Positions 7,788 through 62,170 of a stretch of 64,000 nucleotides of DNA are shown piece after piece; position 1 is the stretch's first letter, and each line of letters begins with the position of its first letter. The stretch lies in the IMG/VR virus record IMGVR_UViG_3300048571_000088, positions 62,001-126,000 of that record; one strand, 5' to 3'. The notes below the pieces were generated by a model. It worked only from the letters and a program-made list of their open reading frames with translations, did no database searches and had not been told where the DNA came from. The position numbers and the translations under genes were made by a program. The stretch comes from a virus.

Positions 7788-8263
7788 TTCGAACCCTCCA
7801 AGATTCTGTCAAGTGAATATTTAATCTTATTCACTTCGTATTCCGGTGTATTGCCTTCTTTTCCACCACCACATTTGATTTCATATAAACGCTTCAAACT
7901 CGTGAAGGCATTCCCGAAGTCAAAATCATTACCAAACCCGTGGGTAATGATATCTTGTGTCTCTAGTTTTTCAGTTGAGACAACCTTGTCCACCAGAACC
8001 TTAGGGAAGGTGTAATAACCACTACTACCACCATCACTCTTGATTACTGCTGATTGGTCTTTAATGTCCACTTCGAGGATGTCCCATCTTGTATCCCCGT
8101 CAACATCACGACCATTTGCAAAGACGGCCAAGCCACTACCCCAATCATCCGTAACTCGATATTTACCATCCCCAATATCCAAAACCCACCCAACCACCAC
8201 CCAACCTTCTTTTGTAGACCGGTAGCGATCACCTTTTTTCAGCTTACTTACATCAATGCTCAT
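7784..8263 (-). CDS. SH3-like protein with helical C-terminus, 159 aa
   Basis: Residues 1-75 resemble the neighbouring small barrels (VSKLKKGDRYRS, then VVVGWVLDIGDGKYRV). Residues 95-159 are a separate charged helical tail ending NKIKYSLDRILEGSK. It overlaps 7350-7787 by 4 nt. Function unknown. Confidence 0.7.
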   Translation of the reverse strand: MSIDVSKLKKGDRYRSTKEGWVVVGWVLDIGDGKYRVTDDWGSGLAVFANGRDVDGDTRWDILEVDIKDQSAVIKSDGGSSGYYTFPKVLVDKVVSTEKLETQDIITHGFGNDFDFGNAFTSLKRLYEIKCGGGKEGNTPEYEVNKIKYSLDRILEGSK

Positions 8264-13695: not shown

Positions 13696-14949
13696 TCAAG
13701 CTAGTAACTGATTAAAGCTGTCTGACAAACTTTTCAGTTTAGCAGTAGCTTCTTCTTTACTCGCCTGTTTGTTTGTTTCGGCAATACGGCTGATTTGATA
13801 GATTGGTTCTACCAGTTCACCAAAGAATGAATTCTCTTGGATGAAGTTTTCATGTTGCTTGTAGTTGACTAGTTTGTCACCTACTGGGAAAACTCCTTTA
13901 TTATGGACGCGAAGAAAATCACTACAAGCTTGAAGAATACCTGTTGTGTTTGCCCAATTAATAATTGAGAACATCATTGCAACTTGATCAGGACTTAATT
14001 CTAAATCTTTAGAAAGAATTCGACTGATCTCTTTTTGGTGTTGTGGTTTTGCCATGTTTCGTAAGTACAGTAATTCGAAACTGGAAGAACCTCCTGCGGT
14101 ATGTTTAACACTATCCATTACAAAGTCTTGAAGACCTCGAATATAGATAAATGTTAGTGTTTGATACATTTTATCGGTCAGGCGTAACATTGGAAACTCT
14201 AACTTATCTTGCTTAAAGTTTCCTTTACATTTGATTGCAGTTTTCTGGTACATTTCTGCACACATTGCAAAAACCCAACCATTATTTGTTGCTGGTCCGA
14301 TAGCTGCCTTAGCGTCGCGAGCGTTTAACAGACAATCCATGTAGGAGAGTTTGTATGAACGCTCCTTGAGGTTTAATTCTCTTGCATAAGGCATTTCATG
14401 TAATTGATATACCATTTCTTTGTCGAATAAAGAATCTGCTTCGTATTCGCCTTCTAGGAAGTTTTTATTCCAGTTTAATTCTTCTTGGCAAGGGATCATT
14501 TTAATGTAATCTGGACGATCATCTGCTTGTTTGAAGCAGTAAATGGGCGCTAAATCGCCATCACTATCCGCATGCGAAAAATAGACAATAGATTCTTTGT
14601 CTATTAATATGATATCTTTATTTTTCTCTGTGTCTAGGTAGTTATCAATCAGAATCTTGTGATTATTTGCTAAGTGGTTAGCAAAATCATCTCGACTCCA
14701 GACTCGTAACTCACGGAACATACTCATCCATAGACAAGGGTGTCGCATGAAGTTAAGCTTGAAACCACGAGTTAATTCTGTATACTCTGGTGATTCACAT
14801 TCAGAGAAACAGTATTTATATAACTTTTGATATAATTTACTATCAAAGATTACACATGTGTCTGGCGGAATCAACGCATCTGTTGATTGTTTCTTACTAA
14901 ATCCCATTACTTGTGGGGTTAGCAATGCGTATGTTCCGGTCAAAATCAT
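13696..14949 (-). CDS. putative second (beta'-like) subunit of a divergent DPBB RNA polymerase
   Basis: The key segment (codons at about 14551-14572) is HADSDGDLAPIY. It carries the D-x-D-G-D triad of the catalytic double-psi beta-barrel of two-barrel RNA polymerases (NADFDGD in bacterial beta'). About 58 residues earlier lies LNFMRHPCLWMSMFREL, in the position and style of the beta' NRAPTLHR element, followed by RVWSR. After the triad, AKAAIGPATNNGW resembles the conserved helix after the active site in YonO/QDE-1-type enzymes. The gene directly follows 15004-17184, the candidate first-barrel subunit. Start: ATG 14949 is used; an upstream GTG at 14994 has no RBS and lies in a hairpin, and a TTG at 14943 is better spaced from AAGGAG. 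417 residues from ATG. Confidence 0.6.
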   Translation of the reverse strand: MILTGTYALLTPQVMGFSKKQSTDALIPPDTCVIFDSKLYQKLYKYCFSECESPEYTELTRGFKLNFMRHPCLWMSMFRELRVWSRDDFANHLANNHKILIDNYLDTEKNKDIILIDKESIVYFSHADSDGDLAPIYCFKQADDRPDYIKMIPCQEELNWNKNFLEGEYEADSLFDKEMVYQLHEMPYARELNLKERSYKLSYMDCLLNARDAKAAIGPATNNGWVFAMCAEMYQKTAIKCKGNFKQDKLEFPMLRLTDKMYQTLTFIYIRGLQDFVMDSVKHTAGGSSSFELLYLRNMAKPQHQKEISRILSKDLELSPDQVAMMFSIINWANTTGILQACSDFLRVHNKGVFPVGDKLVNYKQHENFIQENSFFGELVEPIYQISRIAETNKQASKEEATAKLKSLSDSFNQLLA

Positions 14950-14969
14950 TCTCCTTGGTTTTGAAAGAT

Positions 14970-14996
14970 GAGTGGAGACATCATAAATCTCCACTC
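14970..14996 (-). promoter_or_regulatory. hairpin between the two polymerase-like genes
   Basis: GAGTGGAGA and TCTCCACTC form a 9-bp stem with a 9-nt loop between 15004-17184 and 13696-14949. The stem sequence repeats that of the operon's terminal palindrome at 13660. It may set the ratio of the two products or mark an RNA processing site. Confidence 0.5.
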
Positions 14997-15003
14997 TGTT
15001 GGA

Positions 15004-17184
15004 TTACAGTTCTGCACCTTGGTACAGTAACTTGTTAACTTCGTTCAAGTAAGCATTTAACTCTGTGTAACGCTTTTTACTTGGGTCTTGTTCAAACACA
15101 AATAAATAACGTGGAGTACCCATGCAATACTTTAAGATGTTAGAGATACGGATAATAACTTGATGGTAAGTCCAAGTTTTATCAGGGAGTTGGTTTACAA
15201 ACATGTTCAGTGTCTGAGCAGATGGTACTCGGATAACTGGTGCATTGTTGTAATTCATACCTTTAAACGATAACAAGAAGCCGTTTGGATTCCATTCAGG
15301 ATCGAGTAGTTTTGATGTACTCTTGAATGTACTGATTGCTGTTTCAATAAGGTCTTGTTGGGAGAAAACAGAACCTTTTGTTACTGATTTAGCAGAGTAC
15401 ATAGGAAGTTTATCCGTAGGGAACAAACTACCAGTGAGATCAGTTTTGATTTTCATCAATTCATCTACACACTTTTTGTCTGTTTCTGAGACGTACTTAT
15501 CCCAAATGTGCTTCTGTAGAGCTTTGTTACCGTTCTGCGCTAGAAAACGTCCTGTTTCAAACATGAAAGACATTGGTTTTGCTTTACCATAAGTCTGAGC
15601 TAACTCTGTGAAACGAGTATAGACTAGGCCGATGAAGACTTCCGTTTCGAGACCAAATTCGTCAACATAACGAAACTTTGGCAAAGATTTGAAAGCAGCG
15701 TTAACCATCTCCACATTGTTAGCATCAAGAATTCCCCATTTGTTTTTGGGTTTGTAAGTACCCATTTTGACAGCCAATGTAGCTCCAGCCAGTACAATTG
15801 TATTGACTTTAGCTTTGATTGCATTAGCACCTACAGCAAGATCAGGAGTAAGAGAAGGATATGAGCCTTCAAGGAACTCAATGAAACCTAGATTAGGTTT
15901 ACATTTTGTTACTCCCTTTAAACCTGTGTTAGAGTCTATACGTGCATTTCCTGCTGTTTTAGTGAGCAGAAGACGTAGCTTTCTTGCACCTAGGGTACCA
16001 GAATGAGTGAGAGACTCTAACTTGATTTCATTGATATTTTTGACCTCGATTGGTTTATCTTGGACATCAACACCAACAACAAATTTACCTGAAGGACAAT
16101 GGACAGACTCTCCAATCTTCAAGTTGATTTCATTGAACATGTCAGTAATACTAACAGACTGCATAATCTGTTGAGAGACATATTTAGGTGAAGCTTCAAT
16201 TTCACCAGCTAAGAATCGGCCATGACTGGACATACGACAGAATACAACAACAGATTCAGAAAGACAATCATCTCGAGAGACATAAGAATCTGTTGTTGGA
16301 TCGTATAGACAATCTTGAGCGATTACTGAAGTTGCTGGATTTCTTAAAGCAATTGCATCTGAGATTAAATGAGTTTTTAAGCGAGCTACAATGTTCTGAG
16401 CAGGAGGAAAGATTGAAAAGAAACTCTTTCCAGTCTCTTTATATCCTGGCGAACGATATAATGGATTTGATGGGTTATAAGGATGTACGACAAGTTTACC
16501 AGTCATAGAGAAAGAAGACTCTGATGAGGGATGGACTGGTAAGTCTTTAATGACCATTCGACAGGTTTCTGAAGAAGGTTTATAAGCATTTTGTCGTAGA
16601 ATTTCACCTAGTAACCGTAGAGGATGAGTATCTAAGAGTACAGGTTTGAGTTGAGTTGAGTTTAGTCGATCCCAAGGAGACAGGATGACGAAAGTATTTG
16701 ATACTTTCTTGAAGGCATTATAAGCTTTAGGAGTATTGTAATCCATGAAGGCTTGTAAAGCTCCAATGTCACCAGAGAGAAGATAACCGAAAGCTTTTTG
16801 ATCACTTTTGGCGTACTCTGAAAACATGTAAAGACGATGCTGTAATAGCATGTATAGAAGTTGATTCTGGTTAAGAATGCAATTTGAGTTTGTTGAAAAA
16901 TAATCAATCTTTTTGGATGATTTGAAAGATGAAATTTCAAAGAGGAATTTGGGAAATTGGGTTTTTGAAGCTTTTGGATTGTAAATTGAAGCTGAAATTT
17001 CGATTTCAGTGTTTTCTTGATCTGAATTGAAAAGACTCAAAACAAGAAATGTCTGCATTTTTAATTCCCATTTGAATAAAGATTCAAATCCTTTTGGGAT
17101 TAAAAGATCAATTTCAGAAGCATCAAGATTTTCTGGAATAAACGGAACTTCAGAAAAATCGATTGGGCGATTTGTGATTGCCAT
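15004..17184 (-). CDS. putative first (beta-like) subunit of a divergent DPBB RNA polymerase
   Basis: 726 residues. Residues 405-426 read LLLTKTAGNA...TGLKGVT, which matches the K-x-AG ... G-x-KGV element of the first double-psi barrel in beta subunits (KMAGRHGNKGV), whose two Lys contact the nascent RNA. The N-terminal 400 residues are unrecognised. Gene order (this gene, then the DxDGD gene) mirrors rpoB-rpoC. The 1144-residue protein at 46179 has a comparable TGLANKGSVTK element. If correct, this is a minimal split polymerase lacking most accessory domains; structure prediction of the two chains together would be the decisive test. The start follows an AGGAGT box. Confidence 0.58.
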   Translation of the reverse strand: MAITNRPIDFSEVPFIPENLDASEIDLLIPKGFESLFKWELKMQTFLVLSLFNSDQENTEIEISASIYNPKASKTQFPKFLFEISSFKSSKKIDYFSTNSNCILNQNQLLYMLLQHRLYMFSEYAKSDQKAFGYLLSGDIGALQAFMDYNTPKAYNAFKKVSNTFVILSPWDRLNSTQLKPVLLDTHPLRLLGEILRQNAYKPSSETCRMVIKDLPVHPSSESSFSMTGKLVVHPYNPSNPLYRSPGYKETGKSFFSIFPPAQNIVARLKTHLISDAIALRNPATSVIAQDCLYDPTTDSYVSRDDCLSESVVVFCRMSSHGRFLAGEIEASPKYVSQQIMQSVSITDMFNEINLKIGESVHCPSGKFVVGVDVQDKPIEVKNINEIKLESLTHSGTLGARKLRLLLTKTAGNARIDSNTGLKGVTKCKPNLGFIEFLEGSYPSLTPDLAVGANAIKAKVNTIVLAGATLAVKMGTYKPKNKWGILDANNVEMVNAAFKSLPKFRYVDEFGLETEVFIGLVYTRFTELAQTYGKAKPMSFMFETGRFLAQNGNKALQKHIWDKYVSETDKKCVDELMKIKTDLTGSLFPTDKLPMYSAKSVTKGSVFSQQDLIETAISTFKSTSKLLDPEWNPNGFLLSFKGMNYNNAPVIRVPSAQTLNMFVNQLPDKTWTYHQVIIRISNILKYCMGTPRYLFVFEQDPSKKRYTELNAYLNEVNKLLYQGAEL

Positions 17185-17688: not shown

Positions 17689-17813
17689 TTTCGGAATCCT
17701 ATTTCTGCAAGAACAATTGACAAAAGGATTCCATAAAATCCTGTCCAGATTGAAATCAATGCTACGCCAATAATTGCAGCATACAATTTCAATCTAAAAG
17801 TTAAATCGAACAT
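17667..17813 (-). CDS. small membrane protein, 48 aa
   Basis: MFDLTFRLKLYAAIIGVALI starts one or two hydrophobic spans with a basic C-terminus (FRKCSQPSK). It ends in TAG, showing that TAG is a normal stop codon in this phage. Confidence 0.52.
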   Translation of the reverse strand: MFDLTFRLKLYAAIIGVALISIWTGFYGILLSIVLAEIGFRKCSQPSK

Positions 17814-18126
17814 TTTTCAAGTCTCCTAGTTTCCATTCAGGTTCGAAAGTTTGCCATTTTCCTTTTACTTTCTTTCTGTATCCGAACAGTTTTGCTGTTA
17901 CGAAAAGACAAAGAGAAAACATTACACCGGAAAAAGCAGAAATTATGATGCCAGAAATTGTTCCTGTTAAAGCCATATAAGCTGTAATTCCGAAACCAAA
18001 AAAGGCATCGAGATATGCTTTATAGCCTAAAGCTGTTAGAAACAATTTCTTATCCATGCTGTACAGAATATAGAAAAACTCGACAGCAGTGATAATTCCA
18101 ACGAGTAATAATGTTGATAAAGACAT
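17794..18126 (-). CDS. three-span membrane protein, 110 aa
   Basis: The ATG at 18124-18126 follows GGAGAT. Three hydrophobic segments (LSTLLLVGIITAVEFFYIL, an AYMALTGTISGIIISA region and VMFSLCLFVTA) precede a basic soluble tail with several Trp and Phe. No family recognised. It is co-directional with the polymerase-like pair. Confidence 0.65.
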   Translation of the reverse strand: MSLSTLLLVGIITAVEFFYILYSMDKKLFLTALGYKAYLDAFFGFGITAYMALTGTISGIIISAFSGVMFSLCLFVTAKLFGYRKKVKGKWQTFEPEWKLGDLKNVRFNF

Positions 18127-45753: not shown

Positions 45754-46178
45754 TCCATAAGAAGGTAAGCGGAGATTATGGCTTCCGCTTGTAGCCGTCA
45801 GAGAGCATTTGACTCCAGTAGGTAAAAGAACCTACAAAGAGAAAATGCCTCCAAGAGGATAAACCTCAAAAGAACCATAAGGCTCTTTCGGAGTCAACCC
45901 TCAAGAAGGGCATGATGGTCGCGCCAAACCCAGACCACCCCAAGTGAGGAATCGGAGGCGCGACCGCGAGCGCACGAGCACAATATGACACTAAGCCATA
46001 AGACGGTCGAGGCACGGAGTCACCAGTCCACATTTGTCTGGTGTATAGCGAGTAGCGAGCGGAGTAAGTGTTTTCTTTAACTACAACCCAACTCAGTACT
46101 TGTTCTTTTGGCTGCCATCTTCAGTACTAGGGAACCACCACTAGTAGACTGCCCCTCCCAGGGCAGTTTCGGCTTGTA
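45754..46178. other. 425-nt spacer with structured sequence, no gene seen
   Basis: Higher G+C than average. Contains an element at 46043-46070 (TAGCGAGTAGCGA ... GCGGAGTAAG) resembling the core of the 22.3-22.9 kb structured elements, and a terminator-like hairpin at 46148-46167. No open frame with a good RBS was found. Confidence 0.5.
46148..46167 (-). terminator. GC-rich hairpin downstream of the 1144-aa gene
   Basis: ACTGCCC/GGGCAGT with a 6-nt loop, 11 nt beyond the stop codon at 46179. The stem is stable; the following U-tract is short. Confidence 0.5.
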
Positions 46179-49100
46179 TTAAGGTTTAATTGCTACCGCT
46201 GCATTCAAGAGATACGCTTGAATGCTTTGGTTAACAACTACCTCAGGTCTTGACATCAGCTCAGTCACGTCACCGATCTTCGATACCTTATTCAGGTTAC
46301 CAAAGACCAGCTCCATGGCATCTACGTTGACTTTTGCATCATGCCCAACAGCAGCAAGTGCATGTACCATCAACGTAAGGATGATGATGTCCATCCCTTT
46401 GGCAGAAACGTTATACTCTTTCTGCAATTCCGCCGAGTAGAACATCTTCTCGAACGAAATCTGATAAGCTTCGCGCAAGCTTACAACTTCTGCTACCTTT
46501 TCAGATAACATTTTAGCTTGACGTTGCTTAATTACAGTGAGTAACGCTCCTGCATTATTGGCAAGGAGTTCCTCGGAATCCCATGCATACATTTGTACCC
46601 AAGCTTTCGCTTCAGCTTCAGTATACACAGGGGCGATACGGGCACAACTTTGGGGTGACATTACCTTCGCCAACATCTTGGCTGCCATCTCCCCAATTGC
46701 CCGTTTGATTCGATCCATCGAATCGCTTTGGGTTGCTCCACCCTGCAGATTTACCAGTGAGCGTACAACAGCCTTCACTAGTTTATCATACACATGTGCC
46801 ATACCAGCCACATTCTTACGGATACCTACCCGCATCAGCATAGTTGCTGGCAGATAGGAACCCGAAAGGAGCACCTCTTTTACAACTTTACGTGCCAAGT
46901 CCTCACGGCTCTGCGTCAATTGTTGCGCATGGGTGAAGAGTCCGACGTTACCACGTGCCAGACCAGCCTTTACAACAGCCTTGGTGATGTCTTCCCATGT
47001 ATGCAACACATGGGTAACCACTTTCGGCACCAATGGTGTCCACAAACCTTCCAATTCCGCTTTCACGAAATCAATGGTAGCTTGAGCCACTGGGTTGACA
47101 CTTTCGTCCAACGGTGCATCTTGTTGAACGACCTTACCAAGCCCATCCTTCAGAATAGACTTGTTTGGAACAAGGTAGACGCTACCTGTGTCCCCGTCAC
47201 CGTCATCCTGCCCATGCAATACGAACATTGCATTGTGCAGTTGTGCAGTACCCATCAAGATTGCATCTAAAGAAGACTGAACCTTGTTTCGCACTACCCA
47301 CACACGGCGAACAGCATTGGCCATGATGGTTGGAGGCTTGGCGAACACCGCACCAACACCTGAAGAGTAGCTCTTGCAGGCGCTGTGGTACTGCTCATCA
47401 AGCACAGGAGATGCAACTTCACCGTACCCGAGACTCCACGACGAGACGATCAGACCCGTCGACCCGTGGGCATGAACCTGCCCAAGTTGCTTGCCAAGAA
47501 CACTGTTCCGACATTCCAAGATACTCTCTTTCAAGATACCCCAGACTGTCTCTGTTCTTCCTGAAGCGTCGATAGTGGTAGTGTACCACACCGCCTCAAG
47601 TATGGCAGCAAGCAGACCTTGCGTTTTGATCAGAGTGCCTTTGTTGGACACACTGACCAGTTTTTCCAATACCTTGGTACCAGGGAAGATCATCTCAGTC
47701 CCGTCTGGGAACTGAAGATTTGCCCACTCGGCATCACCAAGTTGGAACAACTGCGCAATGACAATCTCGCCATGCAGGGTCATTCCATGGTCACGCTCCA
47801 ACCAGTTCTTTTCCTTACGAACTTCGTGAAGCGTGTTTACCATATCTTCCATATTAACATCGAAGATGTCTTTACGGTCGATGGTGCCCGGGTGTAGCAA
47901 CTTGAAAGCCAGTTGCAGTTGCTCAACATCAGCTCCTGCTTTCTCACCTTCAAGTACAGCATTTACAAATGCTTCAGCTTGGTCAGTACCATAGTTGGAG
48001 CTGATAGACTGAAGCATTTGTACGTTAGTTTTGACGCTAACGTTTTTACGACGGATTTCTCCGGCTCCAACTAACTCTAGCAGGCTTTCTGCTAGAGTTA
48101 TTCCTCTTTGCTGCGACAACGCAAAGGCTCGTTTTGTAACCGAACCCTTGTTTGCAAGGCCAGTGCAACGATGCACAGCAACTTGACAGAACGACTCAAA
48201 CCCTACCGATTCTTCTGGTACGAGTTCGAACACTGCGCAAGCTGCTGACTCAGTGATGCGGTAATCAGCATCACGTACTATCGCAACAGAGATAACATCT
48301 CCATTGGTCAGTGTTGCATCTTGCCACGGAAGGCTGGCTTTTGACGCAGCAGCTTTCACCGCTGTGTACGGCAGAATGACAATGTTAGTGTCACACTCCA
48401 TCGTCAACAACTCAGCCACCACATCAGCTTCGCGGATCAATGGATCAACCACATCTTCCACGTAGGCTAGACCAACCTTCTGACCCAGCACAGCAAACCC
48501 AACACAGCGAACTGCACCGAATTGATGCCAAGCGTGGGTGTTGAAGCCACCTGAGCCGATTGCACCACTAGCTTCAACCGCCTTGACGGTCTCTGCTTGG
48601 TACTGGCCTCGCTTGGTGCTATCTAAAGCGTACACCACCGTTGTAGCAGTGAACGGGATAGTACCATCATCCGTCGTGCCTTTCACTTGCTTCGATAGAC
48701 GAGCAATCAGTTTTTCAACCGACTCTGCCGAAACAATCCCATCTGCATCTGGTGCTGCGAATACGTTCGCTTTCCGGATATACGAATCCAGTTTTTGAAC
48801 GTACCCATGCTTTTCATGATTTTCAGCATGAAGGCTTGCACCGAAGCCTTTCTTACTGAGAGTCTCTGTTACAGCAGACTCTCCTTCATTCCAGATACCT
48901 TTCAGGACAGTTCCTGTTGGGCCATCTAGAACAACACACATGGCAGGATTAGCTCTTAATCCTGCCAGTTCCACACCGGCCTTATGCGCTAACAGAGCGT
49001 CAATAACGACTCCATTTTTGCTAGGCTGTGCGTTTTTGTCCAGCACAATGATCTGCTCTTTTTCAGCGATCAGGATAAGTTTGGTCATCTTTTCGACAGG

Positions 49101-49613
49101 CAAGATGACCCCAGCCTTCTTGCTATCCTTCCTTACGACCCGCAGATTGAATCCGTTAGGATGCCCGATGTGGAAGTCCCAGACAGACTTGTGTTGCTCA
49201 AGCCCTGCTTCTGGTTGGAGCAACTGCATAGCAGCAAGGAGGATCTGTGGCAACGCTGTTTCCAGCTCTAACGGCAACCCCAAAGCTAGCGACTCACCAG
49301 CTTTCACTGATTCCCATGCCTGTCTCAGAGGTGTCTTGATGTAACGTTTCTCTCCTTTTAGTCCAAGAGTTGTTGCACGATCTTGGAGCAGACTACGAAC
49401 CCGGATACGACAGGCATTCCGAAGCGATACAACTTGCTCCGATTGCGTACCCAGGTTCTGGGTGGTTGTGACCAACTCAGCCAGGTTATGGCAATGAGTG
49501 ATCAATGATACCAAAGCCCGGTTACGGTCTTCTGCCGCTGTATCGTGAGACGTTGTCTCATCGATGTAAGCGACCAGAGCCTCGAGGGTCTTGATGTTGG
49601 TGTTAGTAGTCAT
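46179..49613 (-). CDS. putative single-chain DPBB RNA polymerase, 1144 aa
   Basis: Residues 801-812 read GQDDGDGDTGSV, a D-x-D-G-D triad (D804, D806, D808) as in two-barrel RNA polymerases. About 40 residues before it, AKPPTIMANAVRRVWVVRN parallels the NRAPTLHR element and also the RHPCLWMS...LRVWSR region of the 13696-14949 protein. Residues 484-493, TGLANKGSVTK, parallel TGLKGVTK of 15004-17184 (the KG loop of the first barrel). Order and spacing (about 320 residues) suit a single-chain enzyme of YonO type. It is larger and more G+C-rich than the split pair. Without a structural search the call stays tentative. Confidence 0.52.
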   Translation of the reverse strand: MTTNTNIKTLEALVAYIDETTSHDTAAEDRNRALVSLITHCHNLAELVTTTQNLGTQSEQVVSLRNACRIRVRSLLQDRATTLGLKGEKRYIKTPLRQAWESVKAGESLALGLPLELETALPQILLAAMQLLQPEAGLEQHKSVWDFHIGHPNGFNLRVVRKDSKKAGVILPVEKMTKLILIAEKEQIIVLDKNAQPSKNGVVIDALLAHKAGVELAGLRANPAMCVVLDGPTGTVLKGIWNEGESAVTETLSKKGFGASLHAENHEKHGYVQKLDSYIRKANVFAAPDADGIVSAESVEKLIARLSKQVKGTTDDGTIPFTATTVVYALDSTKRGQYQAETVKAVEASGAIGSGGFNTHAWHQFGAVRCVGFAVLGQKVGLAYVEDVVDPLIREADVVAELLTMECDTNIVILPYTAVKAAASKASLPWQDATLTNGDVISVAIVRDADYRITESAACAVFELVPEESVGFESFCQVAVHRCTGLANKGSVTKRAFALSQQRGITLAESLLELVGAGEIRRKNVSVKTNVQMLQSISSNYGTDQAEAFVNAVLEGEKAGADVEQLQLAFKLLHPGTIDRKDIFDVNMEDMVNTLHEVRKEKNWLERDHGMTLHGEIVIAQLFQLGDAEWANLQFPDGTEMIFPGTKVLEKLVSVSNKGTLIKTQGLLAAILEAVWYTTTIDASGRTETVWGILKESILECRNSVLGKQLGQVHAHGSTGLIVSSWSLGYGEVASPVLDEQYHSACKSYSSGVGAVFAKPPTIMANAVRRVWVVRNKVQSSLDAILMGTAQLHNAMFVLHGQDDGDGDTGSVYLVPNKSILKDGLGKVVQQDAPLDESVNPVAQATIDFVKAELEGLWTPLVPKVVTHVLHTWEDITKAVVKAGLARGNVGLFTHAQQLTQSREDLARKVVKEVLLSGSYLPATMLMRVGIRKNVAGMAHVYDKLVKAVVRSLVNLQGGATQSDSMDRIKRAIGEMAAKMLAKVMSPQSCARIAPVYTEAEAKAWVQMYAWDSEELLANNAGALLTVIKQRQAKMLSEKVAEVVSLREAYQISFEKMFYSAELQKEYNVSAKGMDIIILTLMVHALAAVGHDAKVNVDAMELVFGNLNKVSKIGDVTELMSRPEVVVNQSIQAYLLNAAVAIKP

Positions 49614-49656
49614 ATTGATATAACTAATTCTAACTGGTTTCTAACTACGACCAAGC

Positions 49657-50124
49657 TTACGCTTGAGCCGTCGCAACCAGTTTTGCTGCTTTGCGAGCAG
49701 CGTGACGTGCACGGCGATCCGCTACACGAGCGGTCTTCCCTGTTACACGGACAACTGCTGTTGCAGGGAGGGTTGCAGCAGGAGCGGTCTTTGGAGCAGC
49801 TTTCGCCACTCCTTTCCCGGCCAGGAGCATCAGCCGCAGGGATGTTCTCCCTGCGACATAACTAGCCTGAACATTGGCACGACGGCGTGCCTCTTTGGCT
49901 AGCCGACCTTGCCGAGCTGTTTCCAGCTCTTGTTTCGTGGCAAGGTGAGCACGAAGCTCTGCTTTGGCCTCGGCCAAAGCCAACGCGTTGGAGGCACGGG
50001 TTTCAACCCAACGGCTCACGCCGTAGCCAGGCTTCACGTTCAAGGAGGCAACGCGTGCCTCCAGGGTCGAGATTTGTGTCTCACGGCTTACGCCGTGAGC
50101 TGGCCGTGATTTGATTGCCTTCAT
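49657..50124 (-). CDS. basic coiled-coil protein, 155 aa
   Basis: Ala/Arg/Lys-rich and mostly helical. Two related segments (HGVSRETQ..LEARV and YGVSRWVETR..ALA) suggest an internal repeat. The C-terminal third (ADRRARHAARKAAKLVA) is histone-H1-like. It probably binds DNA or RNA. The DNA holds two CGGCTYACGCCG palindromes. It lies upstream of the 1144-aa gene and downstream of the hammerhead ribozyme, in one transcription unit. Confidence 0.65.
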   Translation of the reverse strand: MKAIKSRPAHGVSRETQISTLEARVASLNVKPGYGVSRWVETRASNALALAEAKAELRAHLATKQELETARQGRLAKEARRRANVQASYVAGRTSLRLMLLAGKGVAKAAPKTAPAATLPATAVVRVTGKTARVADRRARHAARKAAKLVATAQA

Positions 50125-50282
50125 GATTTATCTCCTGTATGGATAGGCTCATTACACCTACTCTGCCTAGTACAGAGAAAAGAGGGAATAACTAGAATGT
50201 ACAGCAGGGTACTTAAACCCATGTAGACCTGTGCTACATACACACCTTTCTTTTATTAAATAGTGAGTAAAGGATCTCACTA

Positions 50283-50333
50283 GCTGTTTCGTCCTTTTGG
50301 ACTCATCAGTGTTACCTCACAGTAACAGACAGC
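50283..50333 (-). ncRNA. type III hammerhead ribozyme
   Basis: On the minus strand all core elements are present in order: stem III GCTGT, cleavage base C (50328), stem I TGTTAC with loop TGTGAG and GTAACA, the conserved CTGATGA (50303-50309), stem II GTCC-AAAA-GGAC, then GAA (50288-50290) and ACAGC closing stem III. Stems are 5, 6 and 4 perfect pairs. Predicted self-cleavage is 3' of C at 50328, in the leader of the operon with the basic protein (49657) and the 1144-aa polymerase-like gene. Hammerhead motifs are known in some phage genomes; here the placement suggests 5' processing of that message. Confidence 0.9.
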
Positions 50334-50391
50334 AGCACACTATATTTTATATCCTGTGTGCTATAGGATAAGACAATGGAACGCTCAGCTC

Positions 50392-50580
50392 TTACAGAAC
50401 GTTCCACATACGCCGCAACTGCACCACCATGTTGAACTCAACCTGGCTCAAGCCTGGGAAAGTTGCACCGTCGCCCAGGCGTACAACTTCCACGACGGTG
50501 CAACCACATGGCACGAATGCCATGTCTGCGACTTCCAGGACAACGAACCCTTGCTTATCCAGCATATTCATACGATCCAT
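50392..50580 (-). CDS. small protein, 62 aa
   Basis: ATG with AAGGAGAATATC upstream. Beta-rich with a central CGC motif (FVPCGCTVVEVVRLG). It is the most upstream gene of the minus-strand transcript that carries the hammerhead. Function unknown. Confidence 0.62.
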   Translation of the reverse strand: MDRMNMLDKQGFVVLEVADMAFVPCGCTVVEVVRLGDGATFPGLSQVEFNMVVQLRRMWNVL

Positions 50581-50777
50581 GATATTCTCCTTAAAGACAG
50601 GCTCATTACACCTGTTGGTATATGTACAAGGGCTAACCTATATACATATACCATTACTGCCTAGTACAGTAGATAATAACTAGGATGACTACCTTGTATA
50701 TACGTCCTACTGATAGGGTGGAGGGTGCTTAGATGCCACCCCATACCATAACCATATAGTACTCTTATATACATCTA

Positions 50778-50928
50778 GTCAGCTTGATAGGAATGAATAA
50801 AAAAGTCAGCTTGATAGGAATGAATAAAAAAGTCAGCTTGATAGGAATGAATAAAAAAGTCAGCTTGATAGGAATGAATAAAAAAGTCAGCTTGATAGGA
50901 ATGAATAAAAAAGTCAGCTTGATAGGAA
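50778..50928 (+). repeat. 27-nt tandem repeat array, 5.6 copies
   Basis: The unit GTCAGCTTGATAGGAATGAA + TAAAAAA is repeated exactly five times, with a sixth partial copy. Because 27 is divisible by three, the array encodes (MNKKVSLIG)n on the plus strand, but no good RBS precedes it, so an iteron-like protein-binding array (replication origin or packaging) is more likely. Identical copies imply recent expansion. Confidence 0.85.
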
Positions 50929-60901: not shown

Positions 60902-62170
60902 ATGGACAAGAATACACAGATTCAAGATATATTTAAAAAAGCTGAATTACTAGCTGGTAAGAAAGTAGAAACAAAAGAAGAGACGTTACCAGACCCCAAG
61001 AAGATTCAGTTACCTAGTGAGTATGTAACTCTTTCAGGGATTATGTTAGATTCTAAAGATGTAATGACAAATACAAACTTCCTATCGAAGCTGACACTAA
61101 ACGATCAGAACTACAAAGACATGACGTTTACACCAGAACAAGCTAAAAAGATTCAAAGAGAACTTACTAAATCTACAGCAGGCGTTATAAGTGCAACACC
61201 ATTAACATGCTTAGGTCCTAATTGTACTTTTGCTTCTACTTGTATTGCAAAAGGTACTGAAGTCTTGACATACACTAGCAAAAATGGTGTTAAACATATT
61301 GAAGATTTAGTTGCTGGAGATATTATATATTCCTTTAACTCTAAAACTAAAGAAATAGAGCACGATCCAGTAGTCGCAGTAAAATTCATGGGTAGTAAAG
61401 AAGTATATAATGTCGTTACCACGACTGGCTTATCTTTACTTTGTACTATAGATCATCTAGTACTTACAGAGAGGAATGATGACCTTGTTTACCTAACTAT
61501 TCAAGACGGTTTACAAGTAGGGGATAAATTATTCTTGGCAGACACTGAAGACTACTTAGAGAATATTTATGAATCTTATGGAGATCTATTAGTAGACACT
61601 ATAGAATCAATACAAAAACAAGACGTAACTGATGTCTATGATATAGAAGTAAGAAAGAATCATAACTTCTTTGCTAATAACATATGTGTACATAATTGTG
61701 TATTTCAGCAAGAAGGTAAGGCACCAATCGGACAAGACTGTATCATTGAAACGAACCAAATTAAATATTGGATGGAAAGGTATATCCAAGAGTTTGAAGT
61801 TGATGGTTCTTCATTAACTGATCTGCACATGATTGCTAGATTATGTGAGTATGATGTCCTAGAGATGAGGGCTACTAAATATCTTAAACTTAATGATCAG
61901 AATTTACTTACGGATTTTATTTCATCTTTTGACGAGAATGGCAACCCAATAACAAATAAAGTTCTATCTCCTGCATTCGAACTAAAAGAAAGAGTAGACA
62001 GGATGCGTTCTAAGACATTAAAAGAATTAATGGCTACAAGAGAAGCTAAAGCTAAGATCCTTACTGCTAATGGAAAAACAAGTACACTCCACTTAAGCGA
62101 TCTAAAAGAACAATTAGATGCGATAATTAAAAACAAATCTAAAATAATTGATGTCACACCAGTAGAGTAA
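60902..62170 (+). CDS. Cys-rich phage protein interrupted by a mini-intein, 422-codon precursor
   Basis: Residues 114-265 are an intein (see separate entry). The spliced product would be 270 residues. The joined region (CLGPNCTFASTC + VFQQEGKAPIGQDC) is a four-Cys cluster likely to bind zinc. The rest is helical with no recognised domain. Its place between cell-wall genes and a TnsA-like nuclease could suit a DNA-packaging or virion-DNA protein, but that is a guess. Confidence 0.72.
   Translation: MDKNTQIQDIFKKAELLAGKKVETKEETLPDPKKIQLPSEYVTLSGIMLDSKDVMTNTNFLSKLTLNDQNYKDMTFTPEQAKKIQRELTKSTAGVISATPLTCLGPNCTFASTCIAKGTEVLTYTSKNGVKHIEDLVAGDIIYSFNSKTKEIEHDPVVAVKFMGSKEVYNVVTTTGLSLLCTIDHLVLTERNDDLVYLTIQDGLQVGDKLFLADTEDYLENIYESYGDLLVDTIESIQKQDVTDVYDIEVRKNHNFFANNICVHNCVFQQEGKAPIGQDCIIETNQIKYWMERYIQEFEVDGSSLTDLHMIARLCEYDVLEMRATKYLKLNDQNLLTDFISSFDENGNPITNKVLSPAFELKERVDRMRSKTLKELMATREAKAKILTANGKTSTLHLSDLKEQLDAIIKNKSKIIDVTPVE
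61241..61696 (+). mobile_element. mini-intein, 152 aa, in the 60902 gene
   Basis: Begins CIAKGTEVLTYTSKNG (block A with Cys1), contains GLSLLCTIDHLVLTE (block B, TxxH type), and ends VYDIEVRKNHNFFANNICVHN (blocks F and G) followed by Cys+1. All splicing residues (Cys1, block B His, penultimate His, terminal Asn, Cys+1) are present. At 152 residues it has no homing endonuclease. It interrupts a Cys of the host protein's probable metal-binding cluster. Confidence 0.9.

Follow-up and report, generated by a model that had tools for sequence, protein, structure and literature searches.

Two hammerhead ribozymes of different topology bracket an operon in a viral record related to jumbo phage ME3

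Clustered hammerhead ribozymes in phage DNA were described by Perreault et al. in 2011, and motifs of types I, II and III were found to flank single genes or short blocks of genes (PMC3088659). Such clusters lie in phages and prophages, and the examples include the ardA gene of Agrobacterium tumefaciens, Azorhizobium caulinodans and Clostridium scindens (PMC3088659). The role proposed at the time was the cutting of long transcripts into operon-length mRNAs; cleavage by the A. tumefaciens trio of hammerheads was shown in E. coli, and 4 of the 18 consensus hammerheads that were tested proved inactive (PMC3088659). A review of 2017 likewise described closely spaced hammerheads that flank small ORFs and are linked to phages, their function being left open (PMC6155905).

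The window analysed here is a stretch of 64,000 nucleotides (positions 62,001 to 126,000) of the viral IMG/VR record IMGVR_UViG_3300048571_000088, which is 242,588 bases (242.6 kb) long. The record is akin to the jumbo phage Acinetobacter vB_AbaM_ME3, as judged from its major capsid protein (52.6% identity), and the kinship is supported by the terminase, which also has relatives. No near-identical DNA was present among the phage records searched. The window belongs with the clustered phage hammerheads, since it contains two hammerheads on the same strand, flanking a short gene block. The initial annotation of this DNA had seen a specific regulatory arrangement in a hammerhead placed before a phage polymerase-like gene; however, hammerheads flanking phage genes had already been described (PMC3088659, PMC6155905), so the arrangement is less unusual than was implied. 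The operon reported here is a well-formed further example of it, although its tidy two-ended architecture is unusual. Unlike the clusters described in PMC3088659, with which it shares the presence of several hammerheads around a gene block in phage DNA, the locus resides in a 242.6-kb ME3-related record, encloses a unit of 4.2 kb that includes a large orphan gene, and combines a type III hammerhead at the 5' end with a type II hammerhead placed at the 3' end directly past a stop codon. The record differs from those clusters also in that it encodes RNA-repair proteins.

All features of the locus are found on the minus strand. A gene for a 62-aa protein (50392..50580) is followed by a hairpin, AGCACAC...GUGUGCU (50334..50362), which was recognised from the sequence and the fold of the upstream fragment and directly precedes the type III hammerhead (50281..50335, core 50283-50333). 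Further downstream lie a leader element, AGGTGTAATGAGCCTATC (50142..50159), and the two genes of the bracketed operon, the first of which is an ORF for a 155-aa protein (49657..50124) with GGAG ahead of its ATG, and the second an orphan gene for an 1144-aa protein (46179..49613). The type II hammerhead (46106..46174) comes immediately after. A second copy of the leader element, 94% identical to the first, precedes the 62-aa gene (50596-50613), and the exact core of the element, AGGTGTAATGAGCCT, occurs only at those two sites in the whole record. The 155-aa protein is basic and rich in Ala, Arg and Lys; family searches with it gave nothing above noise.

Two compositional features were observed in the same region. 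A 27-nt repeat forms an array of 5.6 perfect copies (50777..50928, minus strand) in AT-rich DNA between divergent genes, upstream of the gene for the 62-aa protein, and is absent elsewhere in the record. Nowhere in the record is G+C higher than across the bracketed operon (window positions 46000-50500), where it is about 0.50 compared to 0.27-0.46 elsewhere; it climbs gradually over 25 kb to the peak at the operon and then drops sharply to 0.29.

Read on the minus strand from 50335 to 50281, the type III hammerhead consists of CUGCUGUC, the predicted cleavage site and UGUUACUGUGAGGUAACACUGAUGAGUCCAAAAGGACGAAACAGCUA, the portion after the cleavage site being laid out as UGUUACU-GUGA-GGUAACA CUGAUGA GUCC-AAAA-GGAC GAA ACAGC. 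Stem III has 5 bp (50333-50329 with 50287-50283), stem I has 6 bp and a U.G pair, and stem II has 4 bp. The core is complete (CUGAUGA at 50309-50303 and GAA at 50290-50288), the A15.1-U16.1 pair is present (U50329-A50287), and the cleavage nucleotide H17 is C50328, so that the RNA downstream of the predicted cut would start at U50327 with a 5'-OH. Stems I and II are closed by loops and stem III is open; loop I (GUGA) and loop II (AAAA), of the types found in the 37 other phage sequences that covary, are candidate partners for a loop-loop contact. The covariance model RF00008 aligned over its full length of 54 positions and scored 43.8 bits (E = 9.8e-7 when 22 kb were scanned with all Rfam models and 2.6e-9 with RF00008 alone over the whole record). 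Folded without constraints, the 55-mer has precisely the three-way junction of a hammerhead as its minimum free energy (MFE) structure (-16.1 kcal/mol, z = -2.2). The complete type III hammerhead with all core nucleotides, which the initial annotation had read on this strand, is thus present by sequence, model match and fold alike. Its stems of 5, 6 and 4 bp and the predicted cleavage base C50328 had been given correctly, and its placement between the 62-aa gene and the operon with the 155-aa and 1144-aa genes was borne out. RF00008 found no second match in the whole 242.6-kb record.

The same annotation had named a match above the RF00008 gathering score as one check on its proposal, with a lower score to count as refutation. 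The score obtained, 43.8, formally falls on the refuting side of the gathering score of 48.5, yet the cut-off performs poorly here. The same model was run on 50 other phage records that have a type III core; it matched in 38 of them, and only three exceeded the gathering score. Because the best hits of the remaining 35 of these 38 also fall below 48.5, we hold the cut-off rather than the motif to be at fault. The RF00008 cut-off is a poor test for the phage type III subfamily and is not a defining biochemical feature.

In viral DNA (IMG/VR), at least 119 stretches matched the stem II/core pattern of type III hammerheads. Ten of the 50 phage records contained 2-8 RF00008 matches, all on one strand in each record, and the hammerheads in these records are, on reading the sequences, intergenic and often situated 20-50 nt ahead of an ORF. 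A search with fixed geometry yielded 38 distinct type III sequences, including the one in the window, and zero matches in an equal amount (1.37 Mb) of shuffled DNA. In this set 98.6% of the cells are paired, partly by construction because the sequences were selected for pairing (at least 6/7, 3/4 and 3/4 pairs); this selection does not account for how diverse the compensated pairs are, with 164 cells changed on both sides as against 44 in shuffles and a covariation score of 0.756 as against 0.237. Members share a stem I of seven pairs closed by U.G or U.A, a loop II of the form NAAA and a loop I that is mostly GNGN or GNTT (mostly G-T/A-G-T). The type III hammerhead of the window shares this geometry and the same-strand position before an ORF, has GUGA and AAAA as its loops I and II, and is an ordinary member of this covarying subfamily; it differs in that the next ORF starts 158 nt away, compared to approximately 20-50 nt in many of the others.

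A type II hammerhead, overlooked by the initial annotation, lies on the same strand at 46174-46106 and begins 4 nt past the UAA stop codon of the 1144-aa gene. RF02276 aligned to it with all 66 model positions at 56.2 bits, 19 bits over the gathering score of 37. The E-value for the whole record was 5.8e-12, and this was the one over-threshold match when the window was scanned with all Rfam models. No second RF02276 match was found in the 242.6-kb record, and wider Rfam scans revealed no other ribozymes over their own cut-offs. RF02276 was also silent in the 50 phage records with a type III core, as it was in the controls, although the model does match in the record studied here. Cleavage is predicted after C46147. 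The MFE structure of a 75-mer is the type II fold, with a stem III of 8 bp, a stem I of 6 bp and a stem II of 3 bp. In common with Rfam Hammerhead_II (RF02276), the motif aligns over the full length. A pseudoknot between the stem I loop and the 3' tail is possible, four pairs having been picked out by eye (GGUU 46136-46133 with AGCC 46113-46110). The motif departs from the consensus in the core, where CUGAAGA is followed by one extra U (46117) between A9 and stem II, which the model alignment treats as part of a 2-nt insert. A small number of natural hammerheads, from viroids and satellites, have an extra residue at the same place, with U said to be tolerated well. When 101 nt are folded, stem II is missing from the MFE structure, and a longer RNA context can disrupt it in the predicted fold. 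The presence of both motifs, their structure, their placement on the same strand and their uniqueness in the record are established.

The extra core U, together with a stem II of only 3 bp that is lost from the 101-nt fold, would suit a reading in which either motif, or both, would be inherited or in decay, without appreciable cleavage in the cell and without a role in the operon; the operon also has no known relatives that could show selection. We regard this as unlikely, given that the type II motif stands 19 bits above its cut-off, that the type III motif is fully canonical down to the loop I and loop II types of its subfamily, and that the survival of two intact motifs on the same strand, around a single operon, would hardly be due to chance. 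Chance resemblance to hammerheads has next to no probability: the type III score is under the Rfam gathering score, but the E-values per record are 2.6e-9 (type III) and 5.8e-12 (type II), fixed-geometry matches were absent from 1.37 Mb of shuffled sequence, and these E-values and membership in a covarying family rule such resemblance out.

We consider it probable, with a likelihood of roughly three in four, that the two ribozymes cut the operon transcript at both ends and thereby produce a separate mRNA. We infer a common transcript and activity in vivo: a long minus-strand transcript would span the 62-aa, 155-aa and 1144-aa genes and the small downstream genes, and each of its two hammerheads, type III in the 155-aa leader and type II directly past the stop codon of the 1144-aa gene, would cleave in cis. 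Their product would be an mRNA of 4,181 nt (46147..50327, minus strand, computed from the two predicted cleavage sites) with a 5'-OH and a 2',3'-cyclic phosphate. The earlier proposal that self-cleavage sets the 5' end of the mRNA therefore stands as a prediction, but it was incomplete, a type II hammerhead being present at the other end, so that the two together would delimit an entire transcript unit rather than a leader alone. Type III cleavage would also part the 62-aa gene from the operon mRNA and leave the hairpin at 50334..50362 close to the 3' terminus of the mRNA for the 62-aa protein.

In the computed fold, the 5' hairpin of the released RNA is stem I of the type III hammerhead and the 3' hairpin is the 8-bp stem III of the type II hammerhead. 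The stem-loop at each end would follow from having a type III ribozyme before the operon and a type II ribozyme after it, and this choice of topologies, which leaves hairpins at both ends of the mRNA, is the addition over the known cases. In bacterial mRNA decay, RNase E senses 5' ends and 3' exonucleases stall at hairpins. A 5'-OH in a blunt hairpin would be a poor entry for the 5'-end-dependent activity of RNase E, and a GC-rich terminal hairpin would stop 3' exonucleases, so the likeliest benefit would be that expression and lifetime of the operon are uncoupled from those of the neighbouring genes. Since the type II hammerhead starts 4 nt past the stop codon, a terminating ribosome would cover its stem II strand, which may couple 3' cleavage to translation.

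What supports two-ended processing is that two covariance models matched independently on the same strand, at a distance of 4.1 kb. A promoter or terminator that would convincingly put both ribozymes on one transcript was not found, promoter-like sites being no more than in shuffles, and the searches revealed no relatives of the operon that could show the pairing and position of the ribozymes to be conserved. Neither hammerhead was detected in ME3 or in five related contigs (which, other than ME3, are short fragments), and the same was true of the 1144-aa gene. The bracketed unit therefore looks like a lineage-specific acquisition.

The initial annotation had called the 1144-aa gene polymerase-like. 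What points in this direction is motif spacing: the protein has K-x-P at residue 759 and DxDGD at 804, 45 residues apart, as in YonO-type RNA polymerases (RNAPs), the corresponding spacing in six phage two-barrel RNAPs being 38-47. A K/R-x-P...DxDGD pair at the right spacing was found in one of 686 ORFs of at least 200 aa, namely in the 1144-aa protein. Profile comparison lent the idea no support, and structure prediction was uninformative. Pfam, PHROGs, NCBIfam and the PDB contained no match, hhalign against the six phage two-barrel RNAPs returned a probability of 0.1, inside the shuffle range, and AlphaFold run without an alignment gave a pLDDT of 37 for the whole protein as well as for residues 680-930. 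The protein thus shares the K-x-P...DxDGD spacing with the single-subunit two-barrel RNAPs (YonO, crAss-like gp66, P23-45 gp64 and QDE-1) but differs from them in having no detectable profile similarity; a two-barrel polymerase is a possible reading of it. Two scans of viral contigs, tblastn against 50,697 phages and searches of seven records revealed no relatives. Two weak matches (L140 and L141), both in GC-rich contigs, were rejected as chance.

Several further features were observed in the record, of which L122, L123, L124, L129 and L130 denote stretches. Adjacent ORFs of 432 and 726 aa (window positions 13696-17184, minus strand) constitute a second RNAP-like candidate that resembles a split two-barrel RNAP; the 432-aa ORF contains RHPCLW...HADSDGD and has a relative in ME3 with 34% identity, and hhalign support for this candidate is weak (probability 5.9). 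A PolA-type DNA polymerase (L129:7822-11388, minus strand) appears, when read by eye, to be split by intein-like stretches, and a protein at L130:52 (minus strand) also looks intein-bearing by eye. Three tRNA-like RNAs of 109-120 nt (L123:6445-6563, 7839-7958 and 17735-17843, minus strand) match the tRNA model and received no ARAGORN call. The last of them is located just upstream of a gene for a DUF7788/DUF2828 protein (L123:16191-17663). These RNAs could be intron-bearing or YrlA-like tRNA mimics.

The 5'-OH and 2',3'-cyclic phosphate ends of hammerhead products are substrates for RNA repair, and the record encodes candidate repair proteins. Kinase, phosphoesterase and ligase domains are combined in a Pnkp-like protein (L124:6255-8627, minus strand), which matches PF16542 and reaches 150 bits with TIGR04075 (cut-off 750). 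It is adjoined by a Hen1-like methyltransferase (L124:8617-9888, minus strand; PF22032, TIGR04074). The minus strand at L122:5273-6331 encodes an RNA ligase of the Rnl type that is closely akin to the Naegleria/Deinococcus type and scores 128.6 bits with TIGR02306 (cut-off 151). RNA_lig_T4_1 had no match in the record, nor did it match anywhere else in that search, so this negative carries no weight. Pnkp1-Rnl-Hen1 has been reconstituted as a complex that repairs ribotoxin-cut RNA (PMC4411300). Ligation might accordingly follow self-cleavage, with the 4,181-nt RNA circularised or its flanks joined by the Pnkp-, Rnl- and Hen1-like proteins of the phage or by host RtcB. We think this quite improbable and keep circularisation as a lesser rival, because the repair of host-cut tRNAs is the simpler explanation of the repair genes, such sets being suited to tRNA repair against host ribotoxins. 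Moreover, RtcB was not found in the record, both product ends lie in hairpins, and spliced or circular products of such arrangements were sought previously and not found (PMC3088659). Base-pairing between the two product ends as an aid to circularisation was also rejected, the complementarity being no more than in shuffles. A still more elaborate outcome, in which the phage's own repair proteins (Pnkp, Hen1 and Rnl) would heal the excised RNA and close it into a circle of 4.2 kb, an mRNA for a divergent two-barrel polymerase, strikes us as very unlikely; if true, it would be a DNA-phage counterpart of the ribozyme-bearing, polymerase-coding circular RNAs.

In the case described here, one operon has ribozymes of different topology at its two ends, and proteins of a type that heals and seals RNA ends are encoded in the same record. 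The locus thus makes the partition of transcripts, the protection of their ends and their ligation into circles testable in one system.
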